Shown piece after piece: positions 1,082-29,835 of a DNA stretch of 33,523 nucleotides (position 1 is the stretch's first letter; each line of letters starts with the position of its first letter). This stretch comes from a virus. The translations under genes were made by a program, and so were the position numbers. The notes under the pieces are model-generated. The model searched no databases, was not told the origin of the DNA, and was given only the letters and a program-made list of their open reading frames with translations. Location: positions 1-33,523 of the IMG/VR virus record IMGVR_UViG_3300031576_000220; one strand, written 5' to 3'.

Positions 1082-2547
1082 CACTTTTTCCGCCCCTTCT
1101 TCGCCGGCCGCTTCGCCTTTGCAGACGTCTGCACCGGGGCGGCCTCGTTCAGGATCTTCGCCGCGTCCACGCCGAAGCTCTTCGCCATCGCGGGAAGCCG
1201 CTCGTCGATGTTCCAGTCGTAGGCGACGTTGTCGCAGGCGTGGAGGAAGACCAGGTGGCGCACGAGATCCTCGGCCGTGCGTCCGAGAGGGACGGGGTTG
1301 CTCTTCGGGACGCCACGATCGGACACGACCCCGAGCAGGATCTTCGCGAGGGGCCCGGTGCTCTCGGCCGACATCGTCGAGATCTTCGCGCCGATCGCCG
1401 CGAGGATCGCCGGGCGGGCCTTCATGTACCGCTCCTGCAGCTCGTGCTTCCGCCGATCCTGCTCGGCGCGCTTCGCCTGTTCGTGCGCCACCTGATCCTT
1501 CACCGTGACGCCGGCCTTCCCCGCCTTCGCCACCGTCCGCTTCTGCTTCGCCCGGATCTCGGCGCCCCAGTGGACCATGCACTTCTCCCTGGCGATGCAG
1601 ACCGCGAACGCATCGCCGCGCCCGGGACCGACCGCCACGTAGCCGATGACGGCGTGCTCGCAGGGCTTCGAGTTGTTCAGGCCGTCCGCGCGCTTCCAGG
1701 AGCGGGGGAAGTAGGTCCGGCCCTCGCGCGCCTCGTCGGCGATGTAGCTGGCGTGGGTGATCGGGATGACCTTCTTCGCGTCGGCGAGGGTCGCGGCCGT
1801 CTCCGGGAACAGCATCGTGTCCGGATCCTTCGGCTGGAACCGCACGTGCTGGTCGATCCAGCCCTGCAGCTCGCGGACGCTCCGCGGCTTCACGTGCTCG
1901 ACCGGCTCCGACTCCTCATCCTCTGGCGCTTCGGGATTCCAGAGCAGGGCCTCGCGCGTGAAGACCGCCGACTCCTCAAGGTCGATCGCCCGCGCCTGGT
2001 CCTTCGGGCTCAGCCGCGCGAGCAGGGTGGCGTGCCCGGCGGAGATCTTCCCGTCGAGGAAGAGCTTCTTCGCTTCCTTGGTCAGCTCGAGCAGCTTCAC
2101 CCGGTCGTAGACGTACTTGACCGATCGCCCGATCTTCTCGGCGATGCGGGCGACGTCGTAGCCCTTGACCAGCAGCAGCCGGCGGTAGCTCTCCGCCTCC
2201 TCGAGCGGGTGCAGGTCCGCGCGCTGCAGGTTCTCGACCACCTGGATCTCGAGCACCGCCTGGTCGTCGAGCTCGCGCACGATCGCCGGCAGCTCCTCGA
2301 GCCCGACCATCTGGGCGGCCGCGAACCGGCGATGACCGCAGACCAGCTCGTACCGGCCCGCGCCGTTCAGCGACCGCACCAGCACCGGCTGCAGGAGCCC
2401 CTTCTCGCGGATGCTGGCGGCGAGCTCCTCGAGCTGGTCCCCGGTGACGGTGCGCCTCGGGTTGAGTGGCGAGCGGTCGATCTGGTCGAGAGGGATGCTG
2501 CGAAAGTCGGCCCCGGGCTGGATGCTCGCGGCGACGGCGGTCTTCAT
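1081..2547 (-). CDS. ParB/RepB/Spo0J-family protein
   Basis: 488 residues from ATG 2547, chosen because GGAGGG lies 7 nt upstream; the in-frame ATG at 2562 would lack a site. Residues about 14-105 are a ParB N-terminal domain with IPLDQIDRSPLNPRR, GLLQPVLVR and the signature ELVCGHRRFAA. VENLQRADLHPLEEA and a KorB/Spo0J-type helix-turn-helix (EKIGRSVKYVYDRVKLLEL) follow to about residue 180. The C-terminal 300 residues hold Cys positions (KPCEHAV, FAVCIAREKCMVHWG) and a basic Lys-rich tail. Family members bind DNA and act in partitioning as CTP-dependent clamps; phage versions in recombination operons are also seen without a ParA. No ParA is visible here, so partitioning is uncertain. Confidence 0.88.
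   Translation of the reverse strand: MKTAVAASIQPGADFRSIPLDQIDRSPLNPRRTVTGDQLEELAASIREKGLLQPVLVRSLNGAGRYELVCGHRRFAAAQMVGLEELPAIVRELDDQAVLEIQVVENLQRADLHPLEEAESYRRLLLVKGYDVARIAEKIGRSVKYVYDRVKLLELTKEAKKLFLDGKISAGHATLLARLSPKDQARAIDLEESAVFTREALLWNPEAPEDEESEPVEHVKPRSVRELQGWIDQHVRFQPKDPDTMLFPETAATLADAKKVIPITHASYIADEAREGRTYFPRSWKRADGLNNSKPCEHAVIGYVAVGPGRGDAFAVCIAREKCMVHWGAEIRAKQKRTVAKAGKAGVTVKDQVAHEQAKRAEQDRRKHELQERYMKARPAILAAIGAKISTMSAESTGPLAKILLGVVSDRGVPKSNPVPLGRTAEDLVRHLVFLHACDNVAYDWNIDERLPAMAKSFGVDAAKILNEAAPVQTSAKAKRPAKKGRKK
1121..1132. repeat. 12-bp perfect palindrome GCAGACGTCTGC, copy 1
   Basis: A perfect palindrome inside the 3' end of the ParB-like gene. The same 12 bases occur at 28147-28158 in a non-coding stretch; I found no third copy. 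It is a candidate protein binding site, but this copy could be fortuitous since it lies in coding DNA. Confidence 0.6.
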
Positions 2548-2548
2548 G

Positions 2549-2830
2549 TCACGACCCTCCATGGGATTGGGTGCACTGGTGCTGCACGAGTCCGTTCGAC
2601 GTGAGCGCCACGATCGGCCTGCCGTCGCTCCGCTCGCCGATCACGAAGTAGGCCCGGGGGCCGGGGTCCAGCTGCACCGTGCGGCCGGCGGTGGCATCGT
2701 GGGCCACCACCACCGAGGCTCCGCAGCCGGCGCAGGGACGGGCCTCGAGCTCGCGCGCGACCGGGCTCGGCTCGCGGGTGCCGCGGAGCACCTGCTCCTC
2801 GAGGCCCAGATGGAGCGTGCCCTGGGTCAT
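2549..2830 (-). CDS. Small hypothetical protein with CxxC zinc-ribbon-like start
   Basis: 93 residues from ATG 2830, which overlaps the stop of the gene before it (ATGA). The stop TGA lies one base before the ATG of the ParB-like gene, so it sits in the same coupled chain. Mid-protein RPCAGCGASVVVAHD followed by VQLDPGPRAYFVIGE and a C-terminal NGLVQHQCTQSH resembles a class of small phage proteins with a CxxC pair, a 'DPEPVPY'-like turn and a late His/Cys pair, which may bind one zinc. These are normally uncharacterised. No catalytic motif is visible. Confidence 0.75.
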   Translation of the reverse strand: MTQGTLHLGLEEQVLRGTREPSPVARELEARPCAGCGASVVVAHDATAGRTVQLDPGPRAYFVIGERSDGRPIVALTSNGLVQHQCTQSHGGS

Positions 2831-3540
2831 GCCAGCATCGCCTCGAGCTTCACGGCGAGCTCGGTCAGGCGCGGGCGGGAGACGGCCAGACGGTTCTCGC
2901 CGCCGATCCAGAGCTGCTCGGTGTCGCCGAGCCCGGCGTCGCACGTCCAGTAGGACCCGCTCTTCTTCGGGGCCTCCTTGACGAACACTCGCTCGCCCCC
3001 GAACGAGGCCGTGACGCGCTCGGCCAGGGTGCGGAAGTCGCGGAAGACCGCTTCGTCGGTCTGATGAGCCGGCTCGGCGCCGACGGGGGCAGGAGCCCCA
3101 CCTGCCGCACCGCCGACGCCGGCGACCGGCTCGTCCTCACCGGAGAGGTAGTCCTCGGCGGCCGTGGCGACGCGGCTCCGCTGGTTGCGGATCCGCACCG
3201 CCTTCACGGTCTCGCCGGCGAACTGGGCGTCCGCGACGTAGAGCGTGACCTTCTCACCCTTCCAGAGCTTGGTGTTGATGCCGAACGCCTTGTTCAGCAC
3301 CTTGCGATTCGTGGCGTTGAGCAGCAGAACGCGATCCCGGCCCGCGAACTTGAGGCCGCCCATGTTGTGCTTCTCGCGGCCGCCCTCGAACGTGACCGTC
3401 TTGTAGTGCAGCACGTCCTCGATCGTGACGACGGCGTCTTTGCCCTCGACCAGGTTCTCCGCGGTCAGCCAGATCGAATCCTTGAACAAGCCACTCGGCC
3501 CCTCGTAGGGCGTCCCGACCGGCGGGGGTCTGTCAGCCAT
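2827..3540 (-). CDS. Phage recombination-associated protein of unknown function
   Basis: 237 residues; the TGA overlaps the next ATG. Residues 15-140 contain VVTIEDVLHYKTVTFEGG, LLLNATNRKVLNKAFG and LWKGEKVTLYVADAQFAGE, ending with VKAVRIRNQ. A conserved block of this type (a 'NATN...L.K.FG....W.G..V.LY' core) is often found beside recombination exonucleases in phages and is usually left as hypothetical. A Gly/Ala/Pro-rich linker at about 150-165 separates a C-terminal region, 170-237, with YWTCDAGLGDTEQLWIGG. It sits between the DnaQ-like exonuclease and the ParB-like gene. A DNA-binding or annealing partner of the nearby nuclease is a guess from position only. Confidence 0.75.
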   Translation of the reverse strand: MADRPPPVGTPYEGPSGLFKDSIWLTAENLVEGKDAVVTIEDVLHYKTVTFEGGREKHNMGGLKFAGRDRVLLLNATNRKVLNKAFGINTKLWKGEKVTLYVADAQFAGETVKAVRIRNQRSRVATAAEDYLSGEDEPVAGVGGAAGGAPAPVGAEPAHQTDEAVFRDFRTLAERVTASFGGERVFVKEAPKKSGSYWTCDAGLGDTEQLWIGGENRLAVSRPRLTELAVKLEAMLA

Positions 3541-4126
3541 TGCTCACCTCCTGTGAGAGTGCGCGCGCGAGCGCGATCGTGAGACGCACGTCGGCGAGCG
3601 CCTCGTGGGATTCCATGACCGGGATCCCGAAGTGCCGGCACAGCGTGGCGAGCTGGTAGTTCTCGGGCGGCACGCGGCGGGGCCGTTCGTCGAACCACCA
3701 GAGCGCCCGCTGGCAGGTGCAGCGGACGCGTGGATCCGCAGGCAGGAATCGGCCCCAGTGGTTGAACAGGGCCTGGAGCCGCGGTCCATCGAAGGACGCC
3801 GCGTTGTGGCCGACAAGCCGCGCGACCTTGTAGGGCTTGCCGGTGCGCCGGCTCACCATCTCGAGCGACTTGTGGCGGTCGAGGAAGTCGGTGAACCGAG
3901 AGACGACGCGGATCGGCGCCTCGGCCCTGGCCCAGGCCTCCACCGTGTAGTGGTTCATCTCGAGCGCCGCCGGATCCGCGGCCGTGACGTCGAAGGCGAT
4001 CTTCGCCTCGAACGTCTCGATCTCCGCCCAAGCCTCGTCCACGGTGATTGCGGCGAGCTGGATGTCCGGGTGGTGCGGGAGCAGGCCCGCCGTTTCGAGA
4101 TCGAAGAAGACCGTGCGGGGGCTCAC
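3533..4126 (-). CDS. DnaQ-like DEDDh 3'-5' exonuclease
   Basis: 197 residues from GTG 4126, which overlaps the preceding stop (GTGA). The DEDDh motifs are in order: DLETAG (Asp9, Glu11), a middle HNAASFDGPRL block supplying the second Asp, and a C-terminal HEALADVRLTIALA block (His and Asp). AAITVDEAWAEIETFEAKI between motifs is typical of the RNase T/exonuclease I-like fold. Likely activity is 3'-5' degradation of single-stranded DNA or RNA ends. It has no polymerase domain and lies directly after a RecE-like nuclease, so a role in processing recombination ends fits. It ends 8 nt inside the next gene. Confidence 0.9.
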   Translation of the reverse strand: MSPRTVFFDLETAGLLPHHPDIQLAAITVDEAWAEIETFEAKIAFDVTAADPAALEMNHYTVEAWARAEAPIRVVSRFTDFLDRHKSLEMVSRRTGKPYKVARLVGHNAASFDGPRLQALFNHWGRFLPADPRVRCTCQRALWWFDERPRRVPPENYQLATLCRHFGIPVMESHEALADVRLTIALARALSQEVSNG

Positions 4127-4959: not shown

Positions 4960-5141
4960 GCGGCACCCCGCTTCCGGACCGGCGCCGTCGGGATGAACAG
5001 CGACCAGTGCGGCTTGCGCTTGCCCTTCTCGCGGAAGCAGACGTGAGCCGGCATGCCGTTGGTCGAGGGCACGATCGCGACGACCACGTCCACACCGCCG
5101 ACCTCGACGATGCGCTGCAGGGGGTTTGTGAGCCGGGTCAT
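4956..5141 (-). CDS. Small hypothetical protein
   Basis: 61 residues from ATG 5141. Both ends overlap neighbours by 4 nt (ATGA at the start, GTGA at the end), which is the main evidence that it is real. It begins MTRLTNPLQRIVEVGGVDVV and ends in a basic KGKRKPHWSLFIP segment. No family recognised. Its place between the HNH protein and the RecE-like nuclease may indicate a small accessory factor, but nothing in the sequence shows this. Confidence 0.65.
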   Translation of the reverse strand: MTRLTNPLQRIVEVGGVDVVVAIVPSTNGMPAHVCFREKGKRKPHWSLFIPTAPVRKRGAA

Positions 5142-5446
5142 GCCGCACCCACATGGCGAGCCGCCCGCCGCCCGCGCGACCAGGAGTCACGCAGGTTCAT
5201 GCTCGAGCTGCCGGCGTAGAGATGATCGGGCCTCACGCAGGCCGGCACATCACACACGTGGCAGACGAGGGCACCCTTGGGGATCCGCCCCTTGAAGAGC
5301 GCGTAGGCGACCCGGTGGGCGTAGTGCACGACCCCCCGGAGCTTGAAGATCCCGTAGCCCTCCCCCATCCGGGCCCGGCGCCAGAGCCAGCAGCCGGACT
5401 TTGCCACGCGGACGTAACGCTTCAGGGACTTGCGCGTGAGGATCAT
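5138..5446 (-). CDS. HNH endonuclease
   Basis: 102 residues from ATG 5446, which overlaps the ATPase stop (ATGA). Motifs in order: SGCWLWRRARMGEGYG, VVHYAHRVAYALFKGRIP, LVCHVCDVPACVRPDHLYAG, then a short NLRDSWSRG tail. This is the compact phage HNH type (GCWLW...AHR...CH.CD.P.CV.P.HL). Such enzymes nick or cut DNA; some are homing enzymes, others serve packaging or recombination. The tight overlaps on both sides suggest it is a settled operon member rather than a recent insertion. Confidence 0.9.
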   Translation of the reverse strand: MILTRKSLKRYVRVAKSGCWLWRRARMGEGYGIFKLRGVVHYAHRVAYALFKGRIPKGALVCHVCDVPACVRPDHLYAGSSSMNLRDSWSRGRRAARHVGAA

Positions 5447-6774
5447 GACGCAGCCCCCTTCCCGGCCGGCTCGTCCTCGAGCACGCTGCCGTCCTCGATG
5501 ATGACCGTGGCGCCGCCGTCCTCGACCCTCTCGATCCACAGCTGAGCGTCGTGCTCGTCCGCGCTCTCGCCCAGCAGCCGGAGCGATTCCTCGTCGAGCA
5601 GGGACCCGTCGCGGATCAGAAGGACACGCAGCTTCGGGTTGAGCGCGATCCCGATCGCCACCGAGACGCGCAGCTGCTCCGCGGCCGAGGCCTGGTCAAA
5701 CGGCAGGCCGTTGAACGTGACGAACCCGTCCGTGTCGAACCCGAGACCCTCGACCGGGAACGAGGCCTTGGCGACCGCCTCCTGCTTCGCCGCGTCGATC
5801 GTGTCGATCCGCGCGGTCAGCTTCTGCGATGCGTCCCGTTGCGCTTCGAGCTCGGCCAGGAGTCGGGCGTTCTCAGTGTTCTCCCGCACCTTGCGGTTCA
5901 CATCCTCGACGCCGGCGAGGCGCTCCTTGATCGGGGCGAGGTCGACGTCGACCAGCGCGTCGGCCATGACTCGCGCCTCTGCCGCCTGCTGGCGCATTGC
6001 CTCGGCCTGTCGCTCCTGGCTCTCGAGCGTGACCTGGGCGGCTTTGAGCTTCTCCTGCAGCCGGGCGATCTCGTCCTCGATCGCCTGGCACTGGGCCCGC
6101 GTGCCGACGATCGATTCCTGGATGCGATCACAGTTCTCGCGGATGGAATCGGCGCGCCGGCGGGCGACCGCGTGCTCCGTGTTCGTCGCCCCGGCCGCGT
6201 CGAGGTCCGCGAGGATCTCGGACGCCGAGACGTCCTCCGCCGGCACGTCCCTGTGCTTCGCCGGGAGGGCCTCGTAGCGGGCCCGGAGCGCTTTCCCGTC
6301 CCGGTTCACGTCCGTGCGCACCGCGAAGACGCTGGCCCGCTCCCGGTCGAGCTGGGTGAAGTCGAGCCCGAGCAGCGCCCGGAGGGTCTCCGCCTGGTTC
6401 GCCGGCTCCATCCGAGCGAACGCGAGCGGATCGAACGAGAGCCGCCCAACGATATCGTCGAGCCGCCCCTGCGGAGAAGTGAACCGGGCGCCGTCCTTGG
6501 TCTCGACGGTCAGCATGCCGCCGCCGTCGGCCGTGAACGTCCTGCGAACCAGGAACTCGCCCAGGTCGCAGGTGACCTCGGCGTGCTTCTCGCCGCGGCG
6601 CACCGGTTGTCTGCAGATCAGCTCCTTGCCGCCCAGGGCGTAAGCGATCGAGTCCAGGACCGAAGACTTCCCCTGGCCGTTCTTCCCGCCGACGATCACC
6701 ACGTTCCCTTCGGGCGAGATCTCCACCGCCCGAAGGCGCTTCACGTTCTTCGAGCTGAGCTTGAGGATCCTCAC
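5443..6774 (-). CDS. SbcC/Rad50-like AAA ATPase
   Basis: 443 residues from GTG 6774, overlapping the preceding stop (GTGA). The N-terminus MRILKLSSKNVKRLRAVEI is typical of RecF/SMC-type ATPases, followed by Walker A GGKNGQGKSS (29-38). A coiled coil spans roughly 200-265 (Glu/Gln/Arg-rich heptads) and again about 285-335. The C-terminus has an ABC-signature-like DQASAAEQLRVSVAIGIAL and Walker B-like LRVLLIRDGSLLD. It is much shorter than SbcC (about 1000 residues), like the mini-Rad50 proteins of other phage recombination loci. It probably manages DNA ends together with the nucleases encoded downstream. Confidence 0.9.
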   Translation of the reverse strand: MRILKLSSKNVKRLRAVEISPEGNVVIVGGKNGQGKSSVLDSIAYALGGKELICRQPVRRGEKHAEVTCDLGEFLVRRTFTADGGGMLTVETKDGARFTSPQGRLDDIVGRLSFDPLAFARMEPANQAETLRALLGLDFTQLDRERASVFAVRTDVNRDGKALRARYEALPAKHRDVPAEDVSASEILADLDAAGATNTEHAVARRRADSIRENCDRIQESIVGTRAQCQAIEDEIARLQEKLKAAQVTLESQERQAEAMRQQAAEARVMADALVDVDLAPIKERLAGVEDVNRKVRENTENARLLAELEAQRDASQKLTARIDTIDAAKQEAVAKASFPVEGLGFDTDGFVTFNGLPFDQASAAEQLRVSVAIGIALNPKLRVLLIRDGSLLDEESLRLLGESADEHDAQLWIERVEDGGATVIIEDGSVLEDEPAGKGAAS

Positions 6775-8373: not shown

Positions 8374-8622
8374 CTAGATGCTGCCCGCCCAGGCGTCGGG
8401 ATCCACGCCGGTCGTCCCGGTCGCGATGTCCTTGGCGATCCCGCTGAGCGTGTTCGGCAGATCGGCGAGCGCCGGGACCGCGTAGCCGGCGATCAACGCC
8501 TCGATCGCCGCCTCGCGCTCAGCACCCTCCGGGTACTTCACGATCAGCTCCTTGAGCTCCGCCACCGCCTTCTCCGGGGCGATGCCCACCGCCTCCAGCA
8601 ACTTCTTCAGCGCGTCGTTCAA
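8374..8622 (-). CDS. Small hypothetical protein of the lysis region
   Basis: 82 residues starting at TTG 8622, which has GGGAGGA a few nt upstream. The sequence is mostly amphipathic helix (DALKKLLEAVGIAPEKAVAE, EAAIEALIAGYAVPALADL) with an acidic character and no clear membrane segment or motif. It lies 40 nt after the membrane/beta-barrel gene and before the hairpin at 8320-8360. I recognise no family; location suggests co-expression with lysis genes. Confidence 0.65.
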   Translation of the reverse strand: MNDALKKLLEAVGIAPEKAVAELKELIVKYPEGAEREAAIEALIAGYAVPALADLPNTLSGIAKDIATGTTGVDPDAWAGSI

Positions 8623-8662
8623 CTCGTCCTCCCTGTTCGAGTATGCTGCCTGGGGTGGTCGG

Positions 8663-9517
8663 TTACTTCGCTCCGAGCAGGCGATGGCCGAGCACGACCT
8701 TCGCCATGTTCACGCGCTCGTCGAGATCGTCGAACGGCCTCCCGTGGACGTAGGTCGCGGCGAGCGACCAGCCGTCCTTGAAGACGCGCGCGATCGTCAG
8801 GTGCCCCTCGTAGCCGCGCCAGCCGTCCGTGTCCCCTCGCTGGAAGAACGCGGCGCCAGCGCCGATGAAGAGCTTCGTGTTGCTCGCCTCACCGCGCGGC
8901 GGGTAGACCTTGAGGTTGGCCGATCCGCGGAGCAGGTTCTCGTGACCGGTCGACGCGTCGATCGGGAAACCGTGGTCGTACGTGCCGAACACCGAGAAGC
9001 GATCATGCAGCGAGTAGGTCAGCGCACCCCCCGCGCTCACCCCCCGCCAGCTCTCGGTACCAGTCTCCTCCTCGAAGAACACCATGCCGCCGGCGTTCAC
9101 CGAGAGCTGCGTGCGCTTGCCCGCGTCCCAGATCGAGTAGGTCTGGGCCGATGCCGCCGGGACGAGGAACAGCATCGCCCCGACGATCAGTGGCAGGACC
9201 GCGGGGTTCGCCGGCACGATCGGGTTGCTGGAACGGGCCGCGGGAGCGACGACCGCGAGGTAGAAGCCCTGCACGTAGGCGAATGCGATCGCGGCCTGGC
9301 TGGCGATCGCCCAGGCGTCCAGCTTCGCCTCGACGCCGCCCCAGATCGCGAGTCCCACGCCGAGCACCGATGCGACCACGCCCGCGACCGGTCCCGCGGC
9401 CGAGCCCGCGAACTTCGCGATGAATGGCTTCACGTACTGGAGCACAATCGGGACCATGGTGAGCTTCGCCATGACCAGCGGCTGTAGCAGGATTGCGAAC
9501 GGGCTGTTCGGGTCCAT
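8663..9517 (-). CDS. Holin-like membrane domain fused to signal peptide and beta-barrel-like domain
   Basis: 284 residues from ATG 9517, with GGAGGGAAG directly upstream. Residues 5-92 hold three hydrophobic stretches (about 7-30, 41-60, 68-92) separated by few charged residues, as in a holin or phage membrane protein. Residues 105-124 (VLPLIVGAMLFLVPAASA, then Gln125) look like a secretion signal with an A-S-A cleavage site. Residues 126-284 alternate polar and hydrophobic positions with aromatics (QLSVNAGGMVFFEEET, LTYSLHDRFSVFGTYDHGF, TKLFIGAGAAFFQRGD, WSLAATYVHGRPF), as in small outer-membrane barrels; lambda Lom is a phage precedent for such proteins. The frame is unbroken. An internal start at GTG codon 101 could yield the barrel alone. 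It follows amidase and lipoprotein genes. Confidence 0.75.
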   Translation of the reverse strand: MDPNSPFAILLQPLVMAKLTMVPIVLQYVKPFIAKFAGSAAGPVAGVVASVLGVGLAIWGGVEAKLDAWAIASQAAIAFAYVQGFYLAVVAPAARSSNPIVPANPAVLPLIVGAMLFLVPAASAQTYSIWDAGKRTQLSVNAGGMVFFEEETGTESWRGVSAGGALTYSLHDRFSVFGTYDHGFPIDASTGHENLLRGSANLKVYPPRGEASNTKLFIGAGAAFFQRGDTDGWRGYEGHLTIARVFKDGWSLAATYVHGRPFDDLDERVNMAKVVLGHRLLGAK

Positions 9518-9558
9518 CTTCCCTCCTCCTTGAGCTCTGCGACCGTGCGGCGGCCGCG

Positions 9559-9708
9559 CTACCGAATGACGGAGGCCGAGTCGACGGCCGCCGTGGTGTC
9601 CGGAGCGACTGACTCCGGGACGACTTCCTCGCTCTTGCCGGCGCTGCCACCGCCGAAGTCGCAGCTGGAGAGAGCGAGGGCGAGCAACGCGATCGGGATG
9701 TACCTCAT
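9559..9708 (-). CDS. Small lipoprotein, candidate spanin-type lysis protein
   Basis: 49 residues from ATG 9708, with AGGAGG upstream. A short signal sequence MRYIPIALLALALSSC ends in a lipobox L-S-S-C (Cys16), followed by a Gly/Ser stretch and an acidic, Pro/Thr/Ala-rich remainder. Outer-membrane spanins of phages are small lipoproteins of this type, and the gene lies in the lysis cassette. Against this, Asp follows the Cys, which in enteric bacteria retains lipoproteins in the inner membrane, and no obvious i-spanin with an N-terminal anchor is adjacent. Could also be a superinfection or surface lipoprotein. Confidence 0.75.
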   Translation of the reverse strand: MRYIPIALLALALSSCDFGGGSAGKSEEVVPESVAPDTTAAVDSASVIR

Positions 9709-9736: not shown

Positions 9737-10123
9737 TCACTTCGGGATCAGACCGATCCCCTTCAAGAGCCCGCCGACGATCATCGATGCGGCGAGAATG
9801 AAGATCGACAGCCAGTACTGCGGTTTCTTGTAGAACTCCAGTTTGTTGCCCAGGTCGTTGCCAACGCGCTCGACCTCGATGGAGACGTGCCTCTCCAGCC
9901 CGCCGATCGCCTGCGTGATGTGATCCTTGACCGTCTCGACTGCTTCCTTTCTCGCCTGCTCATTCCGCTCATCGAGCCTCGCAATCAGAGTTCCCTGTTG
10001 GTGCTGCGTGTCCGCGATGCCGCGCGTCGTCTGCGCATTGTCCTGGACGACCGCCGCCAGCTTGTCCGTGACGTCGAGCTGGCGCTTGAAGAGATCCTCG
10101 CTGACCACGCGCGCCTCGCTCAT
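9737..10123 (-). CDS. Coiled-coil protein with C-terminal membrane anchor (XhlA-like)
   Basis: 128 residues from ATG 10123, overlapping the amidase stop (ATGA). Residues 10-95 are a long charged helix with heptad character (LDVTDKLAAVVQDNAQTTRG, ARLDERNEQARKEAVETVKD). A single membrane segment follows near the C-terminus, YWLSIFILAASMIVGGLL (about 103-120), then KGIGLIPK. This layout matches hemolysin XhlA-type proteins, which accompany phage amidases and holins in membrane lysis. An inner-membrane partner of the lipoprotein is an alternative. Direct coupling to the amidase supports a lysis role. Confidence 0.7.
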   Translation of the reverse strand: MSEARVVSEDLFKRQLDVTDKLAAVVQDNAQTTRGIADTQHQQGTLIARLDERNEQARKEAVETVKDHITQAIGGLERHVSIEVERVGNDLGNKLEFYKKPQYWLSIFILAASMIVGGLLKGIGLIPK

Positions 10124-10623
10124 CGGAGCATCTCCTGGAACAGCTCGAGGTCGAACTTGGTGCCCGGGCAGCTCTTCGCCGGGTTGAAGTCACGGTGGCC
10201 GACCACGCGCTCGACGGGGATCCCGTTCTTAGAGATCCAGCGGGCGATCCCCCGGTCGATCGCAACCTTGAGCTGCTCGTTCGGAGGTGGAGACTTGTCG
10301 AAGTTGCCGACGAGGCAAATGTGGAAGGCTCGCGTGTTCATCTCACCCTGCGGACACGCGGCCGCCGGACGCTCCTCGTGGCGCCCAACGATGCACTCGT
10401 ATTCGCCGCCGACCAGCTCGACGAGGAGGTGATAGCCGCAGTCCATCCAGGGCGCGATGACGCCCTTCATGCCCTCGGCGAGCAGCGCGTGTGCCTTCTG
10501 CTCGGTGATGATCTGGTCCTGGAAGCGCCAGCTCGTGTGGAATCGGCGGATCGCAGCCGTGTTAAACTGCACGCCGTCCGGAGTCGCCGAGTGGTGGATC
10601 ATCACATGGGTTCGGAGCGACAC
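10120..10623 (-). CDS. N-acetylmuramoyl-L-alanine amidase endolysin
   Basis: 167 residues from GTG 10623, preceded by GGAGGTGAG 6-8 nt upstream. It is an Amidase_2/PGRP-type zinc amidase, about the size of T7 lysozyme. Motifs: VMIHHSAT (His10/His11), DCGYHLLVELVGGEYECIVG, AFHICLVGNF and VVGHRDFNPAKSCPGTKFD, providing the zinc ligands His143 and Cys152 and the nearby Lys150. It cleaves the bond between muramic acid and L-alanine in peptidoglycan. There is no signal peptide or cell-wall binding domain, so release needs a holin. Its 5' end abuts a divergent plus-strand HNH gene. Confidence 0.95.
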   Translation of the reverse strand: MSLRTHVMIHHSATPDGVQFNTAAIRRFHTSWRFQDQIITEQKAHALLAEGMKGVIAPWMDCGYHLLVELVGGEYECIVGRHEERPAAACPQGEMNTRAFHICLVGNFDKSPPPNEQLKVAIDRGIARWISKNGIPVERVVGHRDFNPAKSCPGTKFDLELFQEMLR

Positions 10624-11101
10624 GTGGCCTCACCTCCCGTCGTCCTAAGCTGCGAGGCTTGCGGGCGACAGTTCAGGGTCTATCCCTACCGCGCAAAGAC
10701 CGCACGCTTCTGTTCGCAGCGCTGCTCGTGGCCCATCGTTGTTCGAGAGAGCCATTGTTCGTGCCGCGATCGGACCGAAAGCCCTGATGAGCAATGGTTA
10801 CGTCCGGATCCGTACGTCCAGCGGCTGGCGATATGAGCATCGGGTCGTCATGGAGCGCTCGATCGGCAGGCCCCTCCTCATCACCGAGGCTGTCCACCAC
10901 GTCAACGGGGATCGAACGGACAACCGCCGGACCAATCTCCGCCTGATCCCACGGCGCGAGCACGACAGGCAACACACAGCACATCGCTGGCGGACCGGCA
11001 CCTTCAACGTCACTGCTCCGGTCTGCGGAGCAATTCGAACTGAAAGGCACGTGCGAGGCCTGCCGTGCGGGCGACGCGGTCCCTGCCCATTTCACCGTTG
11101 A
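10624..11101 (+). pseudogene. HNH endonuclease with zinc ribbon, apparently frameshifted
   Basis: Opposite in strand to all its neighbours. From GTG 10624 (GGAG upstream) one frame encodes [20 protein letters not shown] and RFCSQRC, a zinc-ribbon head usual in free-standing phage HNH enzymes. A second frame, open from TTG 10739 (ATG at 10787), continues with [20 protein letters not shown] and [20 protein letters not shown], the HNH core with its His-His and Asn residues. The frame change falls between about 10725 and 10790. Either the gene is broken, or the core alone is made from 10739 or 10787. It looks like a homing-type gene inserted between the amidase and tail genes. Confidence 0.7.
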
Positions 11102-29391: not shown

Positions 29392-29835
29392 CTAGATCAA
29401 CTGCCGGCTCCGGAACGACACGAACGTGTCGCCGGCGACGATGACGTGATCGAGGACTTCGATGCCGAGCAGCTCGCCACCCTCGACGAGCCTGCGGGTG
29501 ATCGTGAGGTCCTCCTCGCTCGGCTCCGCCTCGCCGCTCGGGTGATTGTGCGCGAGGATGATCGACGCCGCGTTGGCGAGGATCGCCGCCTTGAAGACTT
29601 CGCGCGGGTGAACGATCGACGCGTTGAGCGAGCCGACCGACACGAGCTCCATCGAGCGGAGGCGGTGACGCGCGTCCAGATGGAGGACCACGAACCCCTC
29701 GCGGTCGGTCGGGAGAACGGCCTTCGCCGCGCGGTACGCGTCGTCCGGACCCTGCATCGCGGGAGCGCCGGTCTCGCTGGAAGGGGCGTCGACGGTGATG
29801 AGGCGGACTCGGCGGAGCTTCATCGTTGCGACCAC
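29392..29835 (-). CDS. RadC/JAB (MPN+) domain protein
   Basis: 147 residues from GTG 29835, with GGAGG 5 nt upstream; ATG 29823 is less well placed. The core is EGFVVLHLDARHRLRSMELV, VGSLNASIVHPREVFKAAIL and the JAMM motif HNHPSGEAEPSEED with His96, His98 and Asp109, then ITRRLVEGGELLGIEVLDHV. It is the catalytic RadC domain without the usual N-terminal helix-hairpin-helix part. The family has a metalloprotease-type zinc site of unsettled role, often in mobile elements and sometimes proposed for DNA repair or anti-defence. Follows a strong promoter. Confidence 0.92.
   Translation of the reverse strand: MVATMKLRRVRLITVDAPSSETGAPAMQGPDDAYRAAKAVLPTDREGFVVLHLDARHRLRSMELVSVGSLNASIVHPREVFKAAILANAASIILAHNHPSGEAEPSEEDLTITRRLVEGGELLGIEVLDHVIVAGDTFVSFRSRQLI

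Follow-up and report, generated by a model that had tools for sequence, protein, structure and literature searches.

A fusion gene in a lysis cassette

The DNA analysed here (IMG/VR record IMGVR_UViG_3300031576_000220, 33,523 nucleotides; hereafter the window) contains a lysis cassette on the minus strand, with the order amidase, coiled-coil protein, lipoprotein, fusion gene, the stretch 8622–8374 and a short repressor-like ORF (8310–8002). The fusion gene (8663–9517, minus strand) specifies 284 amino acids, predicted to comprise a holin-like domain, an internal signal peptide and a β-barrel. It starts with the ATG at 9517, ends with the stop codon TAA at 8663–8665, and its ATG is preceded by a strong ribosome-binding site (AAGGAGGAGGG; 9521–9531, minus strand). 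The endolysin is an N-acetylmuramoyl-L-alanine amidase (10120–10623, minus strand; Amidase_2, E 7e-14), in which no signal peptide was seen. The coiled-coil protein (9737–10123, minus strand) has a C-terminal transmembrane segment in an XhlA-like layout, and the small lipoprotein (9559–9708, minus strand; 49 amino acids, lipobox LALSSC) is, from its sequence, a candidate o-spanin. An HNH endonuclease gene (HNH_3, E 1.4e-11; 10739–11101, plus strand) adjoins the cassette in the orientation opposite to its neighbours; a second HNH_3 gene is located at 5138–5539 (minus strand), and a gene for a RadC-like JAB domain (E 1.7e-41; 29392–29835, minus strand) closely follows the gene for the large terminase.

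The two halves of the gene are read in one frame. The GC content at third codon positions (GC3) is 0.85–0.98 for each 40-codon stretch of the fusion frame, the junction included, and matches that of the terminase and capsid genes; the value for an overlapping plus-strand ORF (8552–9487) is 0.69. Because GC3 is unbroken through the junction, the halves form a single intact coding frame with no frameshift. The original prediction of an in-frame fusion at 8663–9517 was thus correct in its coordinates, and the gene lies on the minus strand. The complete protein found no relatives when searched against viral_contigs, phages and genome_contigs, it had no match in Pfam or PHROGs and none near the cut-off in NCBIfam, and queries with the capsid and tail proteins found no kin.

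The closest neighbourhood found is that of phage locus L011, where the amidase is likewise followed by a coiled-coil protein (46% identity to that of the window). The place of the fusion is taken there by a standalone multi-TM protein with no barrel, directly followed by an ORF resembling 8310–8002 of the window. The standalone multi-TM proteins of L011 (5847–6254) and L002 (5798–6223) are mutually related (z 11), and both open with a segment that resembles a signal peptide and is rich in alanine at its end.

The N-terminal half of the fusion (residues 1–95; 9233–9517, minus strand) was assigned as holin-like from hydropathy, charges and its position in the cassette. Hydropathy gives TM-like segments at residues 8–26, 39–57 and 75–93. 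K30 and K35 are located between the first and second segments, the stretch from the second to the third is mostly acidic, and the third is followed by R95; the positive-inside rule applied to these charges gives an N-out/C-in topology. Three transmembrane segments with N-out/C-in topology are the layout of class I holins (PMC9636201), to which the N-terminal half conforms as judged by hydropathy and charge only. As with class I holins of the lambda S105 type, the domain adjoins a cytosolic endolysin with no signal peptide; unlike them, it has no detectable similarity to a holin family and carries an exported protein at its C-terminus. No significant match to holin families was obtained in Pfam or PHROGs, the Hol44 family (PF16079) included; the Hol44 matches seen were confined to other loci and none was above the cut-off. 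A match of the membrane part to a 741-residue frame in G302 (L170; E 9.7e-4) was attributed to composition. The similarity to the holin-like proteins of L011, L002, L003 and L020 is not significant either, so that the N-terminal half is tied to these by position alone. With neither a family model nor similarity to the L011 protein, the term holin derives from topology and place, and we refer to this half as a candidate holin.

A fourth hydrophobic stretch (residues 106–124) ends in PAASA^Q and lies within a predicted signal peptide of residues 100–124 (9146–9220, minus strand), recognized by hydropathy and an AXA motif. The predicted cleavage context is FLVPAASA^QTY, which bears out the signal peptide with an A-S-A site that had been proposed for the gene, and L003 and L020 have equivalent segments. 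Since the three preceding TM segments end in the cytoplasm, the signal would be oriented to export the C-terminal half.

The C-terminal half

Residues 125–284 (8666–9145, minus strand) are predicted to form an eight-stranded barrel of the outer-membrane type, on the basis of an internal repeat and of homology to proteins of the OMP_b-brl family (PF13505). Repeat unit 1 (strands 1–3, residues 136–187; 8957–9112, minus strand) and repeat unit 2 (strands 5–7, residues 214–263; 8729–8878, minus strand) are 33% identical, with a BLASTP E value of 6e-7 and a z of 9.3 against shuffles. When the halves of 15 other window genes were compared in the same way, none exceeded z 1.9. The internal repeats of eight-stranded outer-membrane proteins are double-hairpin shifts, in which strands 1–3 resemble strands 5–7 (PMC6340704), and the repeat of the window barrel has this form.

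The homologous stretch comprises residues 170–234 (8816–9010, minus strand), which were aligned with two proteins from the phylum Myxococcota, L169 and L172. The former came from a search of the genomes of 377 species in that phylum, to which L157 belongs; it has a signal peptide, is a Pfam OMP_b-brl member (E 3.5e-12) and matches residues 171–234. The latter came from a class-level search, is also a member (E 9.3e-17), and matches the barrel at the same place. Comparison of the window barrel with L169 gave a pairwise BLASTP value of 1e-7 and a shuffle z of 11.7, and a profile comparison with L169 plus L172 (hhalign) gave an E value of 8.2e-7. The homology to these accepted members is in register, strands 3–5 aligning as RFSVFGTYDHGF / LLRGSANLKVYP / KLFIGAGAAFFQR versus HVGVEGQLTYVEGF / LNGTANLKLYP / WVLAGAGVGRFER. 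The initial match had a per-genome E value of 3.8e-4 over 377 genomes, equivalent to ∼0.14 matches expected by chance, an estimate that predates the second ortholog (L172) and the pairwise tests. A chance match is improbable because both matching proteins are outer-membrane proteins.

The window barrel shares the in-register homology and the double-hairpin repeat with OmpX/OmpA-like proteins of PF13505. It differs from them in that the window protein does not match the Pfam model (up to E 10), in that its signal is internal, behind a membrane domain, and in that it lacks the C-terminal aromatic residue of the β-signal, its end being HRLLGAK; the chains of L003 and L019 end in W and that of L020 in WFSP. 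The amphipathic-strand score picked eight strands at p 0.07 (for comparison, OmpX scores z 5). The alternating barrel character claimed originally is therefore only weakly significant by this score, whereas the barrel itself is borne out by the OMP_b-brl homology. Single-sequence AlphaFold2 predictions of the full protein and of the C-terminal half failed (pLDDT 40.6 and 39.5; the Foldseek result on the model was noise), and the fold assignment thus rests on homology and repeats. A profile of the repeat unit found no match in viral_contigs or the PDB. Phylum-level genome searches of Planctomycetota and Pseudomonadota gave no matches. Overall, the layout of the gene and the identity of its C-terminal half as a barrel are very probably as described.

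Fusions in related lysis cassettes

The recurrence of this architecture was assessed in 80 viral loci with related amidases, 70 of which have at least 2 kb of downstream sequence. The screen selected proteins with at least two TM segments, followed by a signal and then at least 60 residues with no TM segment. It yielded four lysis-cassette fusions besides that of the window (in L003, L020, L009 and L017), and all five are situated just downstream of the related amidases. One further locus, L014, was discarded, because the protein that scored there is an ordinary membrane protein encoded on the opposite strand.

The fusions of L003 (6941–7654, plus strand; 237 amino acids) and L020 (3728–4423, plus strand; 231 amino acids) each have three TM-like segments, a signal (GAPAIA^D and IPAQA^A, respectively) and about four strands. 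They are colinear throughout (E 0.003, 25% identity); with homology over their whole length at this identity, this type of fusion has been kept over a long divergence. With about four strands, the exported part has too few for a single-chain barrel and would have to oligomerise. In L020, a gene for an 805-residue secreted β-helix-like protein with no Pfam match (1305–3722, plus strand) lies between the amidase and the fusion gene.

In the other two fusions (L009, 5515–6186, plus strand; L017, 2083–2703, plus strand), two TM-like segments are joined through an internal lipobox to a lipoprotein domain. Their lipoprotein domains are 61% identical (z 56) and their membrane halves are unrelated (z −0.7). 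In L022, a separate lipoprotein gene with its own Shine-Dalgarno sequence (5520–5954) is related to that of L017 (z 6.9). In all five fusions the number of TM segments leaves the signal facing the cytoplasm, since three segments start outside or two start inside.

A stop codon between the halves was found in no homologue, the window fusion itself having no close one. The window barrel scored z 2.45 against L003, no similarity was seen to L020, L004 or L019, and we do not claim common ancestry of the window fusion with those of L003 and L020. Relatives in which the halves are joined exist in L003 and L020, and comparable parts occur apart, as holin-like proteins in L011 and L002 and as standalone signal-peptide barrel-like genes in L019 and L004. 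The in-frame fusion originally proposed for this amidase cassette, in which a holin-like domain is followed by a signal peptide within the chain and by a barrel of the outer-membrane type, is supported as real.

Proposed processing and role of the fusion

We favour, with some reserve, the interpretation that the gene encodes a lysis polyprotein, which signal peptidase I would divide into a holin and an outer-membrane protein. Translation would start solely at the ATG at 9517. Residues 1–95 would become embedded in the inner membrane and form a class I holin with three helices and N-out/C-in topology; the segment that follows would stay cytoplasmic, with R95 as the positive flank, and residues 100–124 would act as an ordinary Sec signal peptide within the chain, taking the 160 residues at the C-terminus to the periplasm. 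Signal peptidase I would cut after PAASA, and the freed domain would then assemble in the outer membrane as a barrel of eight strands. In this way one gene would supply inner- and outer-membrane proteins in equal quantity when lysis takes place, and the barrel would most likely help to weaken or open the outer membrane as the last step.

The distance from the hydrophobic core of the signal to barrel strand 1 is about 12 residues in the window, 18 in L020 and 31 in L003. A spacer of about 12 residues is too short to cross the periplasm, so an outer-membrane barrel would need cleavage. An AXA motif with a nearby proline is present in all three fusions, and cleavage by signal peptidase is, from these features, probable. 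A precedent for a lysis protein with a cleavable signal peptide is RI of phage T4 (PMC8385771). A comparable layout is that of FbcH of Bradyrhizobium (cytochrome b plus c1), a polyprotein cut at an internal signal peptide, in which a multi-pass membrane protein likewise precedes the signal and the exported part. FbcH differs in being a respiratory enzyme, not a lysis protein, and is unrelated in sequence to the window fusion.

Holins, phage outer-membrane proteins and unimolecular spanins are already known, and a phage normally encodes its holin, endolysin and outer-membrane factors in separate genes. In the open-access literature searched (most subscription papers being outside its scope), no fusion of a holin to an outer-membrane protein or lipoprotein via an internal signal was described. 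If the proposed scheme is right, a holin and a barrel made in fixed ratio from a single chain would link the first step of lysis to the last, signal peptidase I would become a host factor in lysis, and lysis cassettes that apparently lack a spanin would be explained. Such fusion genes escape automatic annotation. A bolder reading, which we regard as less likely than not, is that linking holins to outer-envelope proteins by way of a cleavable signal inside the chain is a recurrent, unnamed lysis strategy that arose on several occasions from differing holins and cargos. The L003 and L020 proteins would then form a multi-chain barrel, and the form in the window would represent the duplicated, single-chain state. 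The multi-chain barrel would resemble that proposed for the ancestor of eight-stranded outer-membrane proteins, and barrels of one and two units offer a test of whether duplication of a four-strand piece gave rise to eight-stranded barrels.

A direct role of the barrel in lysis seems to us to fall just short of an even chance. Phage-encoded outer-membrane proteins with envelope-modifying or exclusion roles are known in general, and the barrel could be such a late, Lom-like protein, joined to the holin only to share the timing of expression and export. Like lambda Lom and the cyanophage barrel family PF24653 in Pfam, it would be an outer-membrane barrel carried by a phage, and the small lipoprotein of the window could act as o-spanin. 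L011, the nearest kin by neighbourhood, has a holin-like gene and no barrel at the same place, which makes the barrel look accessory. Lambda Lom and the PF24653 proteins are encoded by standalone genes, the window barrel together with a holin-like domain. Its position behind the endolysin and its physical linkage to that domain speak against such a role, as do related cassettes, which fill the same place with barrels or lipoproteins fused to holin-like domains. Because envelope lipoproteins occur there, we favour the lysis role and regard exclusion or envelope modification as less likely.

An internal start, which the original prediction had allowed for at GTG codon 101, fares worse. GTG101 and ATG123 of L003 do just precede the signal sequences, and dual starts are common among holins (PMC9636201). 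The codon exists in the window, but no Shine-Dalgarno sequence was found before it and the n-region of the product would be devoid of positive charge; in L020, neither ATG nor GTG nor TTG occurs between codon 103 and codon 144, the latter lying inside the hydrophobic core of the signal. By contrast, strong Shine-Dalgarno sequences precede the starts of the fusions (window, AAGGAGGAGGG; L020, AAGGAGGGG; L003, GGGAGGTGG), and the standalone genes of L019 and L022 also have clear ones. Separate translation of the barrel is thus poorly supported and improbable, and a single polypeptide is the better reading of these sequences.

Less probable still is a polypeptide that stays uncleaved and ties the inner to the outer membrane. 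Unimolecular spanins of the T1 type (gp11) span both membranes as one protein (PMC6139136), and the window fusion is similarly a single lysis gene with parts for both. However, the spacers in the three fusions are too short for the periplasm, and their AXA motifs speak for cleavage. Classic unimolecular spanins moreover have the reverse order, with an N-terminal lipoprotein signal and lipid anchor and a C-terminal TM segment; the window fusion has its TM segments at the N-terminus and no cysteine lipobox, and a barrel takes the place of the periplasmic linker. That the halves were joined by chance or decay (a lost stop codon or an assembly error) and do nothing as a fusion, to which the lack of a close relative might point, is scarcely credible given that coding statistics are intact in both halves and that four further phages have comparable fusions, of which two share homology over their whole length.
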